DNA from: Spartinivicinus ruber
GTDB taxonomy: Bacteria; Pseudomonadota; Gammaproteobacteria; Pseudomonadales; Zooshikellaceae
Length of the DNA stretch: 64,000 nt
Direction: 5' to 3'
Assembly (NCBI RefSeq): GCF_011009015.1
Contig: NZ_CP048878.1
Location: 308,501-372,500 of the forward strand
A program made the position numbers and the translations under genes. Shown in pieces: positions 4,205-53,479 of the stretch. Under the pieces are notes generated by a model. That model was given only the letters and a program-made list of their open reading frames with translations, was not told the origin of the DNA and did no database searches. Numbering within the stretch: the first letter of the stretch is position 1; each line of letters opens with the position of its first letter.

Positions 4205-4388
4205 AAGCTCCCTGCTCTGTTGGCCAGTCATGAATGTCCCTGAGCCGATAATTTAGGAACTGGAGGCTCCTTGCAGGTGTAGGCGTGCAAGTCCGCTATA
4301 GGCGGAAAGCCCAAAGCATCTCAGCAGCCACCACCTTGAACCTAGGGTTCAAGGGCCGAAGTGACAGCGGCGGATTGGGGGGCGGTTT
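4205..4388 (+). ncRNA. ssrS: 6S RNA
   Basis: 6S RNA mimics an open promoter and inhibits sigma-70 RNA polymerase in stationary phase. Two blocks nearly identical to E. coli ssrS are visible: CCTGAGCCGATA near 4240 on the 5' side, and CACCTTGAACC-AGGGTTCAAGGG near 4332-4355, the conserved 3' hairpin. The gene lies between zapA and fau, its standard location. Both ends are estimates: the 5' end from the TATAAT box, the 3' end from the G-rich stretch that should close the terminal stem. A 72-codon ORF overlapping it is a coincidence. Confidence 0.9.
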
Positions 4389-51082: not shown

Positions 51083-52039
51083 TTGAATATCCTGATTGCA
51101 GAAGATACTCCTTCAGTTAGACTGCTCTTAGCTAAGGTTGTTAGCAAAGCAGGGCATGTTCCTTATTTGGCTGAAAATGGCTATCAAGTTTTGGAATTTA
51201 TGCAATGCACTACCATTGATATGGTGTTGATGGATATCAGCATGCCTAAAATGGGAGGGCTGGAAACTACCCGTCAAATTCGTGAAGAATATGACAGTTG
51301 GTTACCTATAATTTTTATTACTGCCAGTACTGATGACAATGAATATGCTGAAGCGCTGATGATTGGTGGTGATGGCATTTTGGTAAAGCCTATCAAGCCT
51401 GCTTTGGTTCGAGCTCAAGTGAAAGCGATGGAGCGCATTGTTCAATCTCAACAAGAGCTAAATAGAATTAATGCCAAACTGGAAGCAATGAGTAAACAAG
51501 ATGTGCTGACAGGTGTTGCCAATCGTAATGGGCTGTATGAAGCTGTGCAAAAGGAGTTAAAACGGTCTCGACGTCGCAATAGTCCATTATGCTTAATGAT
51601 GATTGATGTGGACTATTTTAAGCAATATAACGATACCTATGGCCATTTAGGGGGAGATGAATGCCTTCGCCTTGTGGCACAAACCATCAAACGACAATTA
51701 AGGCGTCCAGTTGACTTAGTTGCCCGCTTTGGTGGTGAAGAGTTTGTAATATTGTTGCCAGATACAAGGCTAACAGGGGGTAGGCAAATTGGCGAGAGCT
51801 TGCTTGAAGCAATCCGGGAAGCCAAGATCCCTCATGAAGGCAGCCCAGTTGCAGAAATACTAACTGTGAGTGCTGGTTTGGCAGCTAATGAATACGCGAT
51901 TAACGACTATCAGCTTAATGATTTGTTAGATCAGGCAGATGCGGCGCTCTATAAAGCTAAATCTGAAGGGCGTAACCGTTTGGTGAGTATGGCGGACATG
52001 TCAAATAGCAAATCTCCTACAAAACAAGTTGGTGTTTAG
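51083..52039 (+). CDS. Response regulator with diguanylate cyclase output
   Basis: 318 residues: receiver domain (about 1-120; acidic ED at 7-8, phospho-acceptor Asp in MVLMDISMPKMGG near 52, Thr/Lys switch residues in FITAS and LVKPIKP) and a GGDEF domain (about 145-305) with intact GGEEF (ARFGGEEFVILLP) and inhibitory site RPVD five residues upstream. It should make c-di-GMP when phosphorylated. The TTG at 51083 is the only sensible start, supported by AAGGAAAGG at 51065-51073. No partner kinase is adjacent. The Csr-type RNA cluster begins directly downstream. Confidence 0.92.
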   Translation: MNILIAEDTPSVRLLLAKVVSKAGHVPYLAENGYQVLEFMQCTTIDMVLMDISMPKMGGLETTRQIREEYDSWLPIIFITASTDDNEYAEALMIGGDGILVKPIKPALVRAQVKAMERIVQSQQELNRINAKLEAMSKQDVLTGVANRNGLYEAVQKELKRSRRRNSPLCLMMIDVDYFKQYNDTYGHLGGDECLRLVAQTIKRQLRRPVDLVARFGGEEFVILLPDTRLTGGRQIGESLLEAIREAKIPHEGSPVAEILTVSAGLAANEYAINDYQLNDLLDQADAALYKAKSEGRNRLVSMADMSNSKSPTKQVGV

Positions 52040-52056
52040 CGGCTGTATCCTCACTT

Positions 52057-52087
52057 TTGATCCTCCATAATGAATCCCACTTATGAT
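52057..52087 (+). promoter_or_regulatory. Possible promoter of the first Csr-type RNA
   Basis: TTGATC at 52057-52062 and TATGAT at 52082-52087 with a long 19-bp spacer would start transcription near 52094. I found no GacA-type TGTAAG/CTTACA upstream element. Confidence 0.35.
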
Positions 52088-52093
52088 GATCTG

Positions 52094-52493
52094 CGTTACT
52101 TCAGCAAGGAACGCTGAGGCAGATGATCAAGGATGATCGGTGCAAGGAAGCACCTCGCAAGGATTGCGCTAGTTTAAAAGGATGTCTTTGCTACGGAAGC
52201 AATAAATAGGGATAGCAAGGGAAAGGAAATAGGAACTGAACTCAAGGAATAAGGATAGCTGGAGTTGACACAGGGATGCTGTGTCGAGGGAGTCAAGCTA
52301 GGAAAGCTAAAGGAATTCATTAGAGAAGGACTGAAGTAGGAATAGGAAATCGCTTCAGGATGAAGCAACAGGGTTTGTGCTTACGGATGAGCTAAACAGG
52401 AAGTTAACACAAGCACACAAGATTTCAGGATTATGAGTTAACAGGATGTTGACCATACACAAGGAATAAAAAGCCCGCAAATGCGGGCTTTTT
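52094..52493 (+). ncRNA. CsrB-like CsrA/RsmA-sequestering RNA (first of three)
   Basis: About 400 nt with about 26 GGA motifs, 19 of them AGGA, many in the loops of short hairpins: TCAGC-AAGGAAC-GCTGA near 52101-52117, GGTGC-AAGGA-AGCACC near 52139, GCTA-GGAA-AGC near 52297, CTTC-AGGAT-GAAG near 52353 and TTAAC-AGGAT-GTT near 52438. This is the architecture of CsrB, which titrates the translation regulator CsrA. It ends in a clear terminator (52468-52493). No protein-coding signal fits. The 5' end is an estimate. Length and motif number resemble E. coli CsrB (369 nt, about 22 motifs). Confidence 0.88.
52468..52493 (+). terminator. Terminator of the first Csr-type RNA
   Basis: Stem AAAAAGCCCGC / GCGGGCTTTTT, loop AAAT, then GG. 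Confidence 0.9.
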
Positions 52494-52679
52494 GGTTTGG
52501 AGCTAGATAATTAAGCTTTTATATGAGAAGCCGAAATCACTTTAATCATGACATTACTTTGGCTTTCCCTGCATTAAAACGTTCAGGTCAAATCATGACC
52601 TATTAAATAGCTGATATCTCACAGAAGTTAGCGATGATCGCTAATGATCTCATCAGTAAAATTAATAATACTTAATAAC

Positions 52680-52857
52680 AGCAAAAGATGTTAAAGCCTG
52701 TTCCAAGCAAGGAAGCACCACAAAAGGTCATGGAAGACCTTAGTTTGTAAGGAACAGCTTATACTAAAGGCCTCAAGGATGGGGTAATAAGGAGCGCTGG
52801 CAGGAAGCTAGCATCAGGGACGGTAAGAAAAAACCCACTAGTTAAGTGGGTTTTTTT
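52680..52857 (+). ncRNA. Csr/Rsm-type small RNA (second of three)
   Basis: About 110-180 nt with seven GGA motifs between 52710 and 52820. Two hairpins present GGA in the loop in canonical form: AAGGTC-ATGGAA-GACCTT (52724-52741) and GCTGGC-AGGAA-GCTAGC (52796-52812 region). It ends in the terminator at 52828-52857. The size fits the shorter RsmY/RsmZ/CsrC group. The 5' end is uncertain; upstream dyads (AGGTCA-AATCA-TGACCT near 52585, TTAGCGA-TGA-TCGCTAA near 52628) may be regulatory or part of a longer RNA. Confidence 0.78.
52828..52857 (+). terminator. Terminator of the second Csr-type RNA
   Basis: Stem AAAAAACCCACT / AGTGGGTTTTTT, loop AGTTA, seven Ts in all. Confidence 0.9.
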
Positions 52858-52980
52858 GTTTGGCGGCCTAGGCAAAAAGAGGTAATCGTTTGTTTAATAG
52901 CCATACTTGTTGCTGTTGAGCTAAATGCCTTACTCACTATGGCAAATTTCCTACACGGCTTTACTCTTTTACTGAATGAC

Positions 52981-53206
52981 AGTCGGTTAGCAACTGGGCA
53001 CAATAGCACTCAGATTCAGCGACGTAGCAAGGGAATCAAAAGGATTGCAGCTAAGGGATTCTGAAAGGAATTCAGGCCCGTAAGTGTTAGGAAAACACAT
53101 GGACTGTCCTGAACAATAGGATTGAATGGAAACAATAGCCAAAGGGAACTTGACTCAAGGATGGCAAAATTTTAAAAGCCTGCTTATTTATTAAGCAGGC
53201 TTTTTT
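52981..53206 (+). ncRNA. Csr/Rsm-type small RNA (third of three)
   Basis: About 220 nt with ten GGA motifs between 53031 and 53161. Two hairpins show the exact CsrA-binding geometry, a 5-bp stem with loop AGGAA: CTGAA-AGGAA-TTCAG (53061-53075) and GTGTT-AGGAA-AACAC (53084-53098). CAAT-AGG-ATTG (53114-53124) and ATTG-AATGGAAA-CAAT follow. It ends in the terminator at 53174-53206. The 5' end is a guess. A 72-codon ORF at its left edge is not credible. Confidence 0.8.
53174..53206 (+). terminator. Terminator of the third Csr-type RNA
   Basis: Stem AAAAGCCTGCTTA / TAAGCAGGCTTTT with a 5-base loop and six Ts. Confidence 0.9.
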
Positions 53207-53403
53207 CGTTATTGATTAGATTTTTTTACTAAAGAAACGACTTTCTTAATGTATATAGCTTATAAAGTATATACCCACAGTGAAGGGTATTTTAGATGAG
53301 GCCATCAAGTGATGAGTTGCAGCGACTTTTCTAAAAATCATTCACACAGGGTATATTGACAGAGATAGTTTGATTAACTATTATCACCATTCCTTTCTAC
53401 AGT
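53207..53403. other. Spacer before tRNA-Thr with a weak relic of the dispersed repeat
   Basis: AGTGATGAG and AAAATCATT...AGGGTATA near 53309-53355 resemble parts of copy B. The tRNA promoter should lie here. Nothing else is recognised. Confidence 0.3.

Positions 53404-53479
<76 letters not shown>

Follow-up and report, generated by a model that had tools for sequence, protein, structure and literature searches.

The question raised by the locus described here is what three GGA-rich units, lying head to tail between a response-regulator gene and a tRNA gene in Spartinivicinus ruber, encode, and whether they answer to one activator or to several. The window, by which we mean the whole stretch of DNA that was analysed, comprises 64 kilobases (kb; G000:C1:308501-372500) of a host genome of 6.69 megabases, and the array occupies its positions 52040-53210 on the plus strand. 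A first-pass annotation had interpreted the array as three tandem sponge RNAs of the Csr/Rsm type, and that interpretation has gained in silico support, both from the GGA content, the folds of units 1 and 2 and conservation, and from a weak match to the CsrB family, the presence of CsrA and of a UvrY/GacA orthologue in the host genome, and a box shared by the three upstream regions. Judged from their sequence, the units are very likely to be genuine CsrB/RsmX-like sponges that lack annotation and form an unusual cluster; that they represent three small RNA genes whose products would act as CsrA sponges, co-activated through the common box by the UvrY/GacA orthologue, is a reading that we hold with good, though not full, confidence.

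Anatomy and conservation of the array

On the plus strand, GGA occurs 26 times in unit 1 (52090-52493), seven times in unit 2 (52690-52857) and ten times in unit 3 (53020-53206), the same numbers as had been given in the first-pass annotation, and is absent from both spacers (52500-52680 and 52860-53015); the reverse strands of the three units carry zero, one and one GGA, respectively. When stretches of 404 nucleotides (nt) were compared across both strands of the window, the maximum of 27 GGA was found over unit 1 (mean 3.7, standard deviation 2.5), and the second richest separate stretches of 168 nt and of 187 nt both fell within unit 3. No open reading frame (ORF) of at least 50 amino acids was found on the plus strand inside any unit, and one (52846-53064) runs across the spacer between units 2 and 3. 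The further claim that the units are not simple copies of each other agrees with the BLAST comparison among them, the sole link being a 42-nt match between units 1 and 2 (E 0.004-0.009). The units are, at the level of sequence, no recognisable copies of one another, and simple tandem duplication was dropped as an account of the array for that reason.

The three intrinsic terminators that had been proposed are all present, two of them in a pattern scan (one on the minus strand only) and the third by folding (Table 1), and the pairing of the unit 2 terminator is kept in relatives through changes on both sides at two of its pairs. Relative to composition shuffles, the folding energies of units 1, 2 and 3 corresponded to z values of -3.7, -4.7 and -3.0. 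Ten of the 26 GGA of unit 1 lie wholly within hairpin loops, a number that none of 100 shuffles reached, as do four of the seven in unit 2, which was reached by none of 200; the shuffles of this loop test preserve GGA triplets and base composition, and not dinucleotides. Compensatory changes on both sides of a pair were found at 8 of 97 pairs in a three-sequence consensus fold of unit 1, at 3 of 49 in the consensus fold of unit 2 (as many in 16 of 500 shuffles), and at 2 of 59 in that of unit 3 (as many in 54 of 500).

A search for the same array in related genomes, which had been suggested as a check on the first interpretation, located it in both other genus genomes among those compared (G001 and G002; BLAST, 36 relatives besides the host genome itself), where the order of the units, the upstream gene for a response regulator with a GGDEF domain and the downstream tRNA gene are all as in the window. 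Direct BLAST of the array against 37 genomes, the host included, gave long matches in the three genomes of the genus only, and the matches in G028, G030 and G032 extended over just 26-40 nt. Over the three genus genomes, and with gaps scored as changes, invariant columns account for 277 of 409 (68%), 133 of 165 (81%) and 168 of 196 (86%) positions in units 1, 2 and 3, for 34 of 45, 66 of 93 and 39 of 60 (65-76%) in the stretches upstream of them, for 27 of 107 (25%) and 40 of 92 (43%) in the spacers, and for 17 of 134 (13%) outside the array. Judged by these fractions, constraint seems to act on the three units and on the stretches upstream of them, but not on the spacers. All seven GGA of unit 2 (p 0.014) and all ten of unit 3 (p 0.009) are kept in the three genomes, the p-values being rough in that overlapping triplets were taken as independent; unit 1 still carries 21 GGA in G001 and 23 in G002.

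Among 35 sub-threshold Rfam matches (to E 5 on 1.5 kb), the lowest E-value belonged to CsrB (RF00018), which aligned end to end with unit 1 (52135-52502; 25.2 bits, E 1.1e-4, gathering score 71), and the whole rsmX model (RF02144) aligned with unit 2 (52753-52856; 25.5 bits, E 0.026, gathering score 56); unit 3 had no convincing match, as CsrC (10.8 bits) reached only terminator level. Across the host genome, the CsrB model ranked unit 1 first (22.5 bits, E 7.8e-4, window 52314-52498) and unit 2 second, at an E-value of 0.58 that is not significant; at E <= 10 the same model also finds matches in 8 of 14 genomes used as controls, archaeal ones included. No fourth Csr RNA emerged from the host genome, in that the CsrB model (E <= 10) returned nothing beyond the array, and covariance models of units 2 and 3 gave only matches of at most 23.2 bits or reverse-strand array terminators; G000:C1:1297048 (23.2 bits) was rejected as a further Csr RNA because that strand has no GGA-rich stretch. 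The unit 2 model, at E <= 1, has matches in 30 of 37 genomes, many of them chance or confined to a terminator, and about a dozen of the loci that it found outside the family were checked for GGA clusters.

A common upstream box and its candidate activator

Alignment of the upstream regions revealed a common 18-mer ahead of each unit, centred 63-67 base pairs (bp) in front of the starts predicted from -10 elements; that of unit 1, AATAGCAAATCTCCTACA, is identical across the three genus genomes. A matrix trained on only eight sites from a sibling genus ranked the three boxes highest in the 64 kb, with scores of 30.0 (unit 3), 22.4 (unit 1) and 13.7 (unit 2), the next background site scoring 13.5. 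When the 120 nt ahead of each unit were searched for the best match to known sites, the box was the best match to the Escherichia coli csrB UvrY site in all three stretches, with 11, 12 and 12 of 18 positions for units 1-3 (unit 2 in reverse orientation), values of 11 and 12 being reached by 0.2% and 0.03% of the 18-mers of the window; the csrC site of E. coli likewise found its best counterpart in the box, with 11, 12 and 12. The best matches to the Pseudomonas rsmZ site lay elsewhere than the boxes, and in the comparison with the rsmY site the unit 1 box was best, the unit 3 box was equalled elsewhere, and the unit 2 box was not best.

Only the right half of the box resembles the consensus half-site, and a good left half-site is lacking. 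The relaxed pattern TGTNAG-N4-8-CTNACA occurs at 26 sites in the host genome (13 for a control pattern), none of them in the window. According to the portion of PMC4682653 that was available, an extra element, TGTAGGAGA, adjoins the csrB site of E. coli, whose csrC site shows weaker symmetry; the right half of the unit 1 box, TCTCCTACA, is the exact reverse complement of that extra element. Judged by such sequence comparisons, UvrY/GacA is the likely activator at the box.

Both protein partners are encoded in the host genome. The UvrY/GacA orthologue is 57% identical to E. coli UvrY, and the segment LSPKTVNSYRYR, which we take to be the UvrY recognition helix, is identical. A canonical CsrA of 61 amino acids scored 90.9 bits; the cut-off was also exceeded by three divergent homologues, with lengths of 159, 101 and 101 amino acids. 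As a separate observation, the three divergent genes (loci L002, L003 and L004, at G000:C1:851109, 4503755 and 1319398) comprise one whose product of 159 amino acids has a long tail and two that encode very similar proteins of 101 amino acids; the same ORF of 77 amino acids lies 5' of both of the latter, and an ORF of 71 amino acids that by eye resembles an excisionase follows one of them, which suggests that these two homologues reside in a mobile element.

The box is found beyond the genus as well. The two sibling-genus genomes, G003 and G004, are draft assemblies in which distances between contigs cannot be read; the corresponding locus in them, flanked by the GGDEF orthologue (52% identity) and a tRNA-Thr gene, is without the array and retains the box (TACGGTCAATTTCCTACA or TACGGCCAATTTCCTACA) and CATAAT, together with a strong, different terminator-like hairpin followed by T's; by eye, five GGA lie between box and hairpin in G003 and three in G004. 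That sequence (L103 2423-2770, and the same locus on the minus strand of L104) appears to be a vestigial or a different small RNA gene. At other loci of these two genomes, searches with the covariance model of unit 2 and with the box pattern brought to light further GGA-rich RNAs, at least four in each: on C83, C70 and C146 (a pair separated by 3.77 kb) in G004, and on C135, C346, C10 and C352 in G003. All eight have the box and, by eye, a terminator hairpin; they contain 6-10 GGA apiece, and the first GGA of the cluster lies 74-87 nt 3' of the box. BLAST connects the eight to one another, either directly or through an intermediate member, in contrast to units 1-3, which are not mutual copies. 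Among four such RNAs from outside the genus that were put through the loop test, only G004 C83 (5 of 9 GGA) exceeded all 200 shuffles.

Allowing at most one mismatch, the box pattern ATRGCARATHTCCTACA occurs at 16 sites in five genomes of the family (none for its reversed control), and all 12 exact sites, as well as two of the four with one mismatch, stand ahead of GGA-rich RNAs. Eleven of those 12 exact sites had served to write the pattern; of the five sites that had not been used, three precede GGA-rich RNAs (G003 C135, G004 C70 and G003 C352). Across 341 genomes of the order, 12 have an exact site; 11 exact sites, in seven genomes, lie outside the family, and these include three in G224 and one in G049, from two other families, that stand ahead of Csr-like RNAs with 14-16 and six GGA, respectively. 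The RNAs of G224 (L185 445-710, L186 519-790 and, on the minus strand from 49, L187) are similar to each other, have the exact box and lie near contig ends; they possibly form a second array, or a repeat, in what is a draft assembly.

The predicted promoters are listed with the other features in Table 1. That of unit 3, at 9 of 12 positions in a promoter scan, recurs in two relatives with an identical -35 element and CAAAAT as the -10 element; the same scan, over 3.5 kb, returned 11 such sites, where 9.3 are expected from shuffles, and the prediction is therefore weak when taken alone. In the mechanism that we propose, the phosphorylated UvrY/GacA orthologue would bind about 65 bp upstream of each of the three starts, and three separate non-coding RNAs would be made, each from its own promoter and each ended at its own intrinsic terminator; the GGA loops of the three RNAs would then titrate CsrA, such that CsrA-bound mRNAs would be released. 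Because the same response regulator likely starts all three, the cluster would act as a jointly activated store of 43 GGA, distributed over three RNA species that differ in size and perhaps in turnover.

Table 1. Features of the array and its immediate neighbours (window coordinates)
Feature	Position	Strand	Remarks
Upstream neighbour, response regulator with GGDEF domain	51083..52039	+	named from its translation by inspection; 3' end contains the unit 1 box
Unit 1 box, AATAGCAAATCTCCTACA	52004..52021	+	candidate UvrY/GacA site; inside 3' end of the response-regulator/GGDEF gene
Unit 1 predicted -10, CATAAT	52067..52072	+	chosen by eye; same letters in three genomes and at the G003/G004 locus
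Unit 1 alternative -10, TATGAT	52082-52087	+	other candidate
Unit 1 RNA, CsrB-like	52079..52493	+	~415 nt, 26 GGA; 5' end predicted
Unit 1 intrinsic terminator	52468..52493	+	pattern scan lists the minus strand only (symmetric hairpin); seen in folds
Unit 2 box, AATAGCTGATATCTCACA, weaker	52606..52623	+	candidate UvrY/GacA site
Unit 2 predicted -10, AATACT	52667..52672	+	chosen by eye; same letters in three genomes
Unit 2 RNA, RsmX-like	52679..52858	+	~180 nt, 7 GGA; 5' end predicted
Unit 2 intrinsic terminator	52828..52857	+	absent from pattern scan; forms in folds
Unit 3 box, TATGGCAAATTTCCTACA	52938..52955	+	candidate UvrY/GacA site; exact match to the ATRGCARATHTCCTACA pattern
Unit 3 predicted promoter	52976..53004	+	-35 ATGACA, 17 nt, -10 CACAAT; 9/12 in promoter scan
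Unit 3 RNA, Csr-like	53010..53206	+	~197 nt, 10 GGA; 5' end predicted
Unit 3 intrinsic terminator	53174..53204	+	pattern scan, plus strand; seen in folds
Downstream neighbour, tRNA	53404..53476	+	G003/G004 have tRNA-Thr(TGT) at the same place

Far from the array, the window also contains a 6S RNA gene (SsrS; RF00013, 95.6 bits) at positions 4206-4385 of the plus strand.

Contrary evidence and alternative readings

Several observations weigh against the interpretation of the array as a set of sponges under UvrY/GacA control. With regard to the units themselves, unit 2 taken by itself is unexceptional in its GGA content, since seven or eight are reached elsewhere in the window; and the earlier statement that many GGA lie in loops, which is upheld for units 1 and 2, fails for unit 3, where one of ten does so and 119 of 200 shuffles have as many. 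The loop test was likewise null for G004 C146a, G003 C10 and a G224 RNA, with 32, 33 and 27 of 200 shuffles, respectively, equalling the observed count. The covariation described above is drawn from only three related sequences and hence gives mild support, and 13 of the 26 GGA of unit 1 are kept in the genus, a fraction that is not significant when compared to other triplets (p 0.14). The comparison with Rfam that the first-pass annotation had proposed yielded the weak CsrB and rsmX matches to units 1 and 2, but no family attained its gathering score anywhere in the array (CsrB, CsrC, RsmY, RsmZ and rsmX included), and once the filters were tightened, the CsrB and rsmX models found nothing in the host genome. 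Leader families hit the terminators at similar bit scores (a minus-strand Leu leader at E 7e-4), so that among the Rfam matches only that to CsrB is meaningful, and it is not strong. The units are CsrB/RsmX-like by design, yet they are not assigned to those Rfam families.

The upstream evidence is subject to comparable reservations. The choice of -10 elements for units 1 and 2 was made with the spacing to the box in mind, and neither element appears in the promoter scan; the unit 2 box barely exceeds the background in the matrix search (13.7 versus 13.5), so that the case for it is as much positional as score-based. The classical TGTAAG-N6-CTTACA box was not found in the window. Two of the one-mismatch sites, G001 C112 and G000:C1:6089026, are followed by no comparable GGA cluster, nor are six exact sites in the genus designated g94, where, in one genome (G300), five GGA are scattered across some 100 nt after the box; the sequence behind the single exact site of G319 is not clearly Csr-like. 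The box thus reaches beyond the family and, judged by what follows it, is not confined to Csr-like RNAs. The g94 sites lie at loci L175, L176, L177, L178, L181 and L183; TTCCGTTGAAAAC stands downstream at five of the six and, in three of them, is followed by a G+C-rich hairpin (by eye); a different RNA answering to the same regulator is perhaps encoded here.

An activator other than UvrY/GacA might control the Csr RNAs of the family through this box, as would suit the want of a good left half-site and the difference from TGTAAG-N6-CTTACA, the comparison with Pseudomonas (where rsmZ finds its best matches off the box and rsmY a clear best at the unit 1 box only), and the g94 sequences that follow an exact box without a comparable GGA cluster. 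We consider this rather unlikely, in that the box is the best counterpart of the E. coli csrB site in each of the three upstream stretches, that TCTCCTACA mirrors the csrB element TGTAGGAGA (the csrC site itself being less symmetric, as stated in the part of PMC4682653 consulted), and that the host genome encodes a UvrY orthologue. It is improbable that the three genes, while all encoding CsrA sponges, answer to separate activators or signals. That arrangement would fit the differences in length and sequence among the units, the weaker box of unit 2 and the report, in the text available for PMC6262261, that one of four csrB copies of Vibrio tasmaniensis is independent of VarA despite having a site; it is at odds with the occurrence of the same type of box, at a similar distance, before all three units in three genomes. 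For the same reason, the distinct control that the first-pass annotation had read into the dissimilarity of the units found no support. Instead, a single activator shared by the three units appears most likely from the sequences, given that the box precedes each unit, the GGA-rich RNAs of the sibling genus and such RNAs in two other families; the unequal strength of the boxes, unit 2 having the weakest, may possibly allow unequal output.

Two further alternatives concern the nature of the transcripts. Read-through of the terminators could create one composite sponge of about 1.1 kb with 43 GGA in its units, as the head-to-tail order, with no recognised gene between units, might invite one to suppose, and there is a precedent from another family of small RNAs in PrrH, which in Pseudomonas aeruginosa arises from tandem prrF1-prrF2 (PMC4211561, in the part seen). 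Each unit has nevertheless kept a box and a terminator of its own, and invariant columns fall to 25-43% in the spacers, such that we judge a composite of this type very improbable; transcription as a single operon was dropped in view of the three boxes and three terminators. The units might, finally, be no sponges at all, and instead A/G-rich leaders, genes for short peptides or remnants, their GGA being a matter of composition. Unit 1 is indeed rich in A+G (259 of 404 nt), and no unit is called by Rfam, but the GGA are strand-biased and, in units 1 and 2, placed in loops beyond what composition shuffles produce, the units harbor no plus-strand ORF of at least 50 amino acids, and terminators and upstream box are conserved; this last alternative is barely credible.

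Known systems and biological meaning

Unit 1 is similar to CsrB (RF00018; E. coli, Vibrio, Shewanella) in its predicted length, its number of GGA, their presence in hairpin loops and its terminator, and differs from it in a score far below the gathering value and in standing in tandem with two further candidate sponges. Unit 2 recalls the rsmX of Pseudomonas as a short sponge, in its sub-threshold alignment to the whole model and in its tandem setting, and the array shares with rsmX, which is under GacA control, a candidate control of the GacA type. Tandem rsmX pairs are described in the available text of PMC7911923 for P. brassicacearum (rsmX-1/rsmX-2), P. fluorescens F113 and P. stutzeri; those pairs consist of two copies that are 75-81% identical (same source, same part), unlike the three dissimilar members found here. 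The csrB1 and csrB2 of Shewanella oneidensis occupy neighbouring intergenic regions with a transposase gene between them (PMC3171408, as far as its text was available). As at the UvrY/GacA promoters of csrB, csrC and rsmX/Y/Z, an 18-bp element lies upstream of each gene of the array; the boxes of the array depart from those promoters in having the right half only, without the classical inverted repeat, and are positioned near -65 from the predicted start, versus a centre near -183 for the E. coli csrB site (passages of PMC4682653).

Several sponges per genome are also known from V. tasmaniensis (csrB1-4), Pseudoalteromonas (Pf1-3) and Azotobacter (rsmZ1-7 and rsmY). The csrB copies of V. tasmaniensis were relocated after duplication, according to the part of PMC6262261 consulted, and for the Pseudoalteromonas and Azotobacter sets a tandem array is not mentioned in the portions of text consulted, which does not exclude one. 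No account of a three-member array of unlike Csr RNAs was found in the literature listings searched, and among the papers listed for Spartinivicinus and Zooshikella none dealt with Csr RNAs. A scan of 293 genomes of the order with the rsmX model placed six genomes above the cut-off (10 rows, among the matches listed), including G147, where two strong copies on C105 (75-188 and 337-448) lie about 150 nt apart, and G270, with a pair 2.2 kb apart; no triple within a few kb appeared among the matches listed, and the scan is a poor gauge of rarity because the present array was missed too. A CsrB scan of 274 genomes of the class, in which only five candidates per genome were scored and an E. coli control was positive, gave no match, and is uninformative on prevalence because unit 1 itself was missed. 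When the locus was sought through the upstream GGDEF gene, the best 80 relatives were 30-45% identical over the best segment and came from many phyla; L018, the sole one of these checked for GGA clusters, has at most seven GGA per 200 nt and no tRNA, which says little. The first description of the array as unusual is accordingly right insofar as no three-member array of unlike RNAs was found, and is to be tempered by the published rsmX pairs and those of the order scan. What is new here are the members, an arrangement that was not found described, and an upstream box unlike the classical one.

A more extended picture can be offered tentatively, as a possibility rather than an expectation: that the genus has kept a three-gene array of unlike RNAs, in which a one-sided box of the UvrY/GacA type (consensus approximately WATRGCAAATHTCCTACA) replaces, throughout the family, the classical repeat; that the dose and turnover of GGA would be tuned by the mixture of RNAs and not by separate signals; and that a giant composite sponge may arise in addition by read-through.

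Csr sponge genes have little in common apart from their GGA loops and are therefore difficult to recognise in sequence data. Where Rfam calls none of the three units, the shared box offers a handle for finding such genes. The 17-base pattern, which takes no account of GGA, pointed to three further candidates from the sibling genus, to four from two other families and to nine sites that are not clearly sponge-like. The array is also a natural test case for the question of why bacteria maintain more than one sponge: with one apparent activator shared by all three, the differences among the sponges would be differences of dose, affinity or turnover, and not of inputs.

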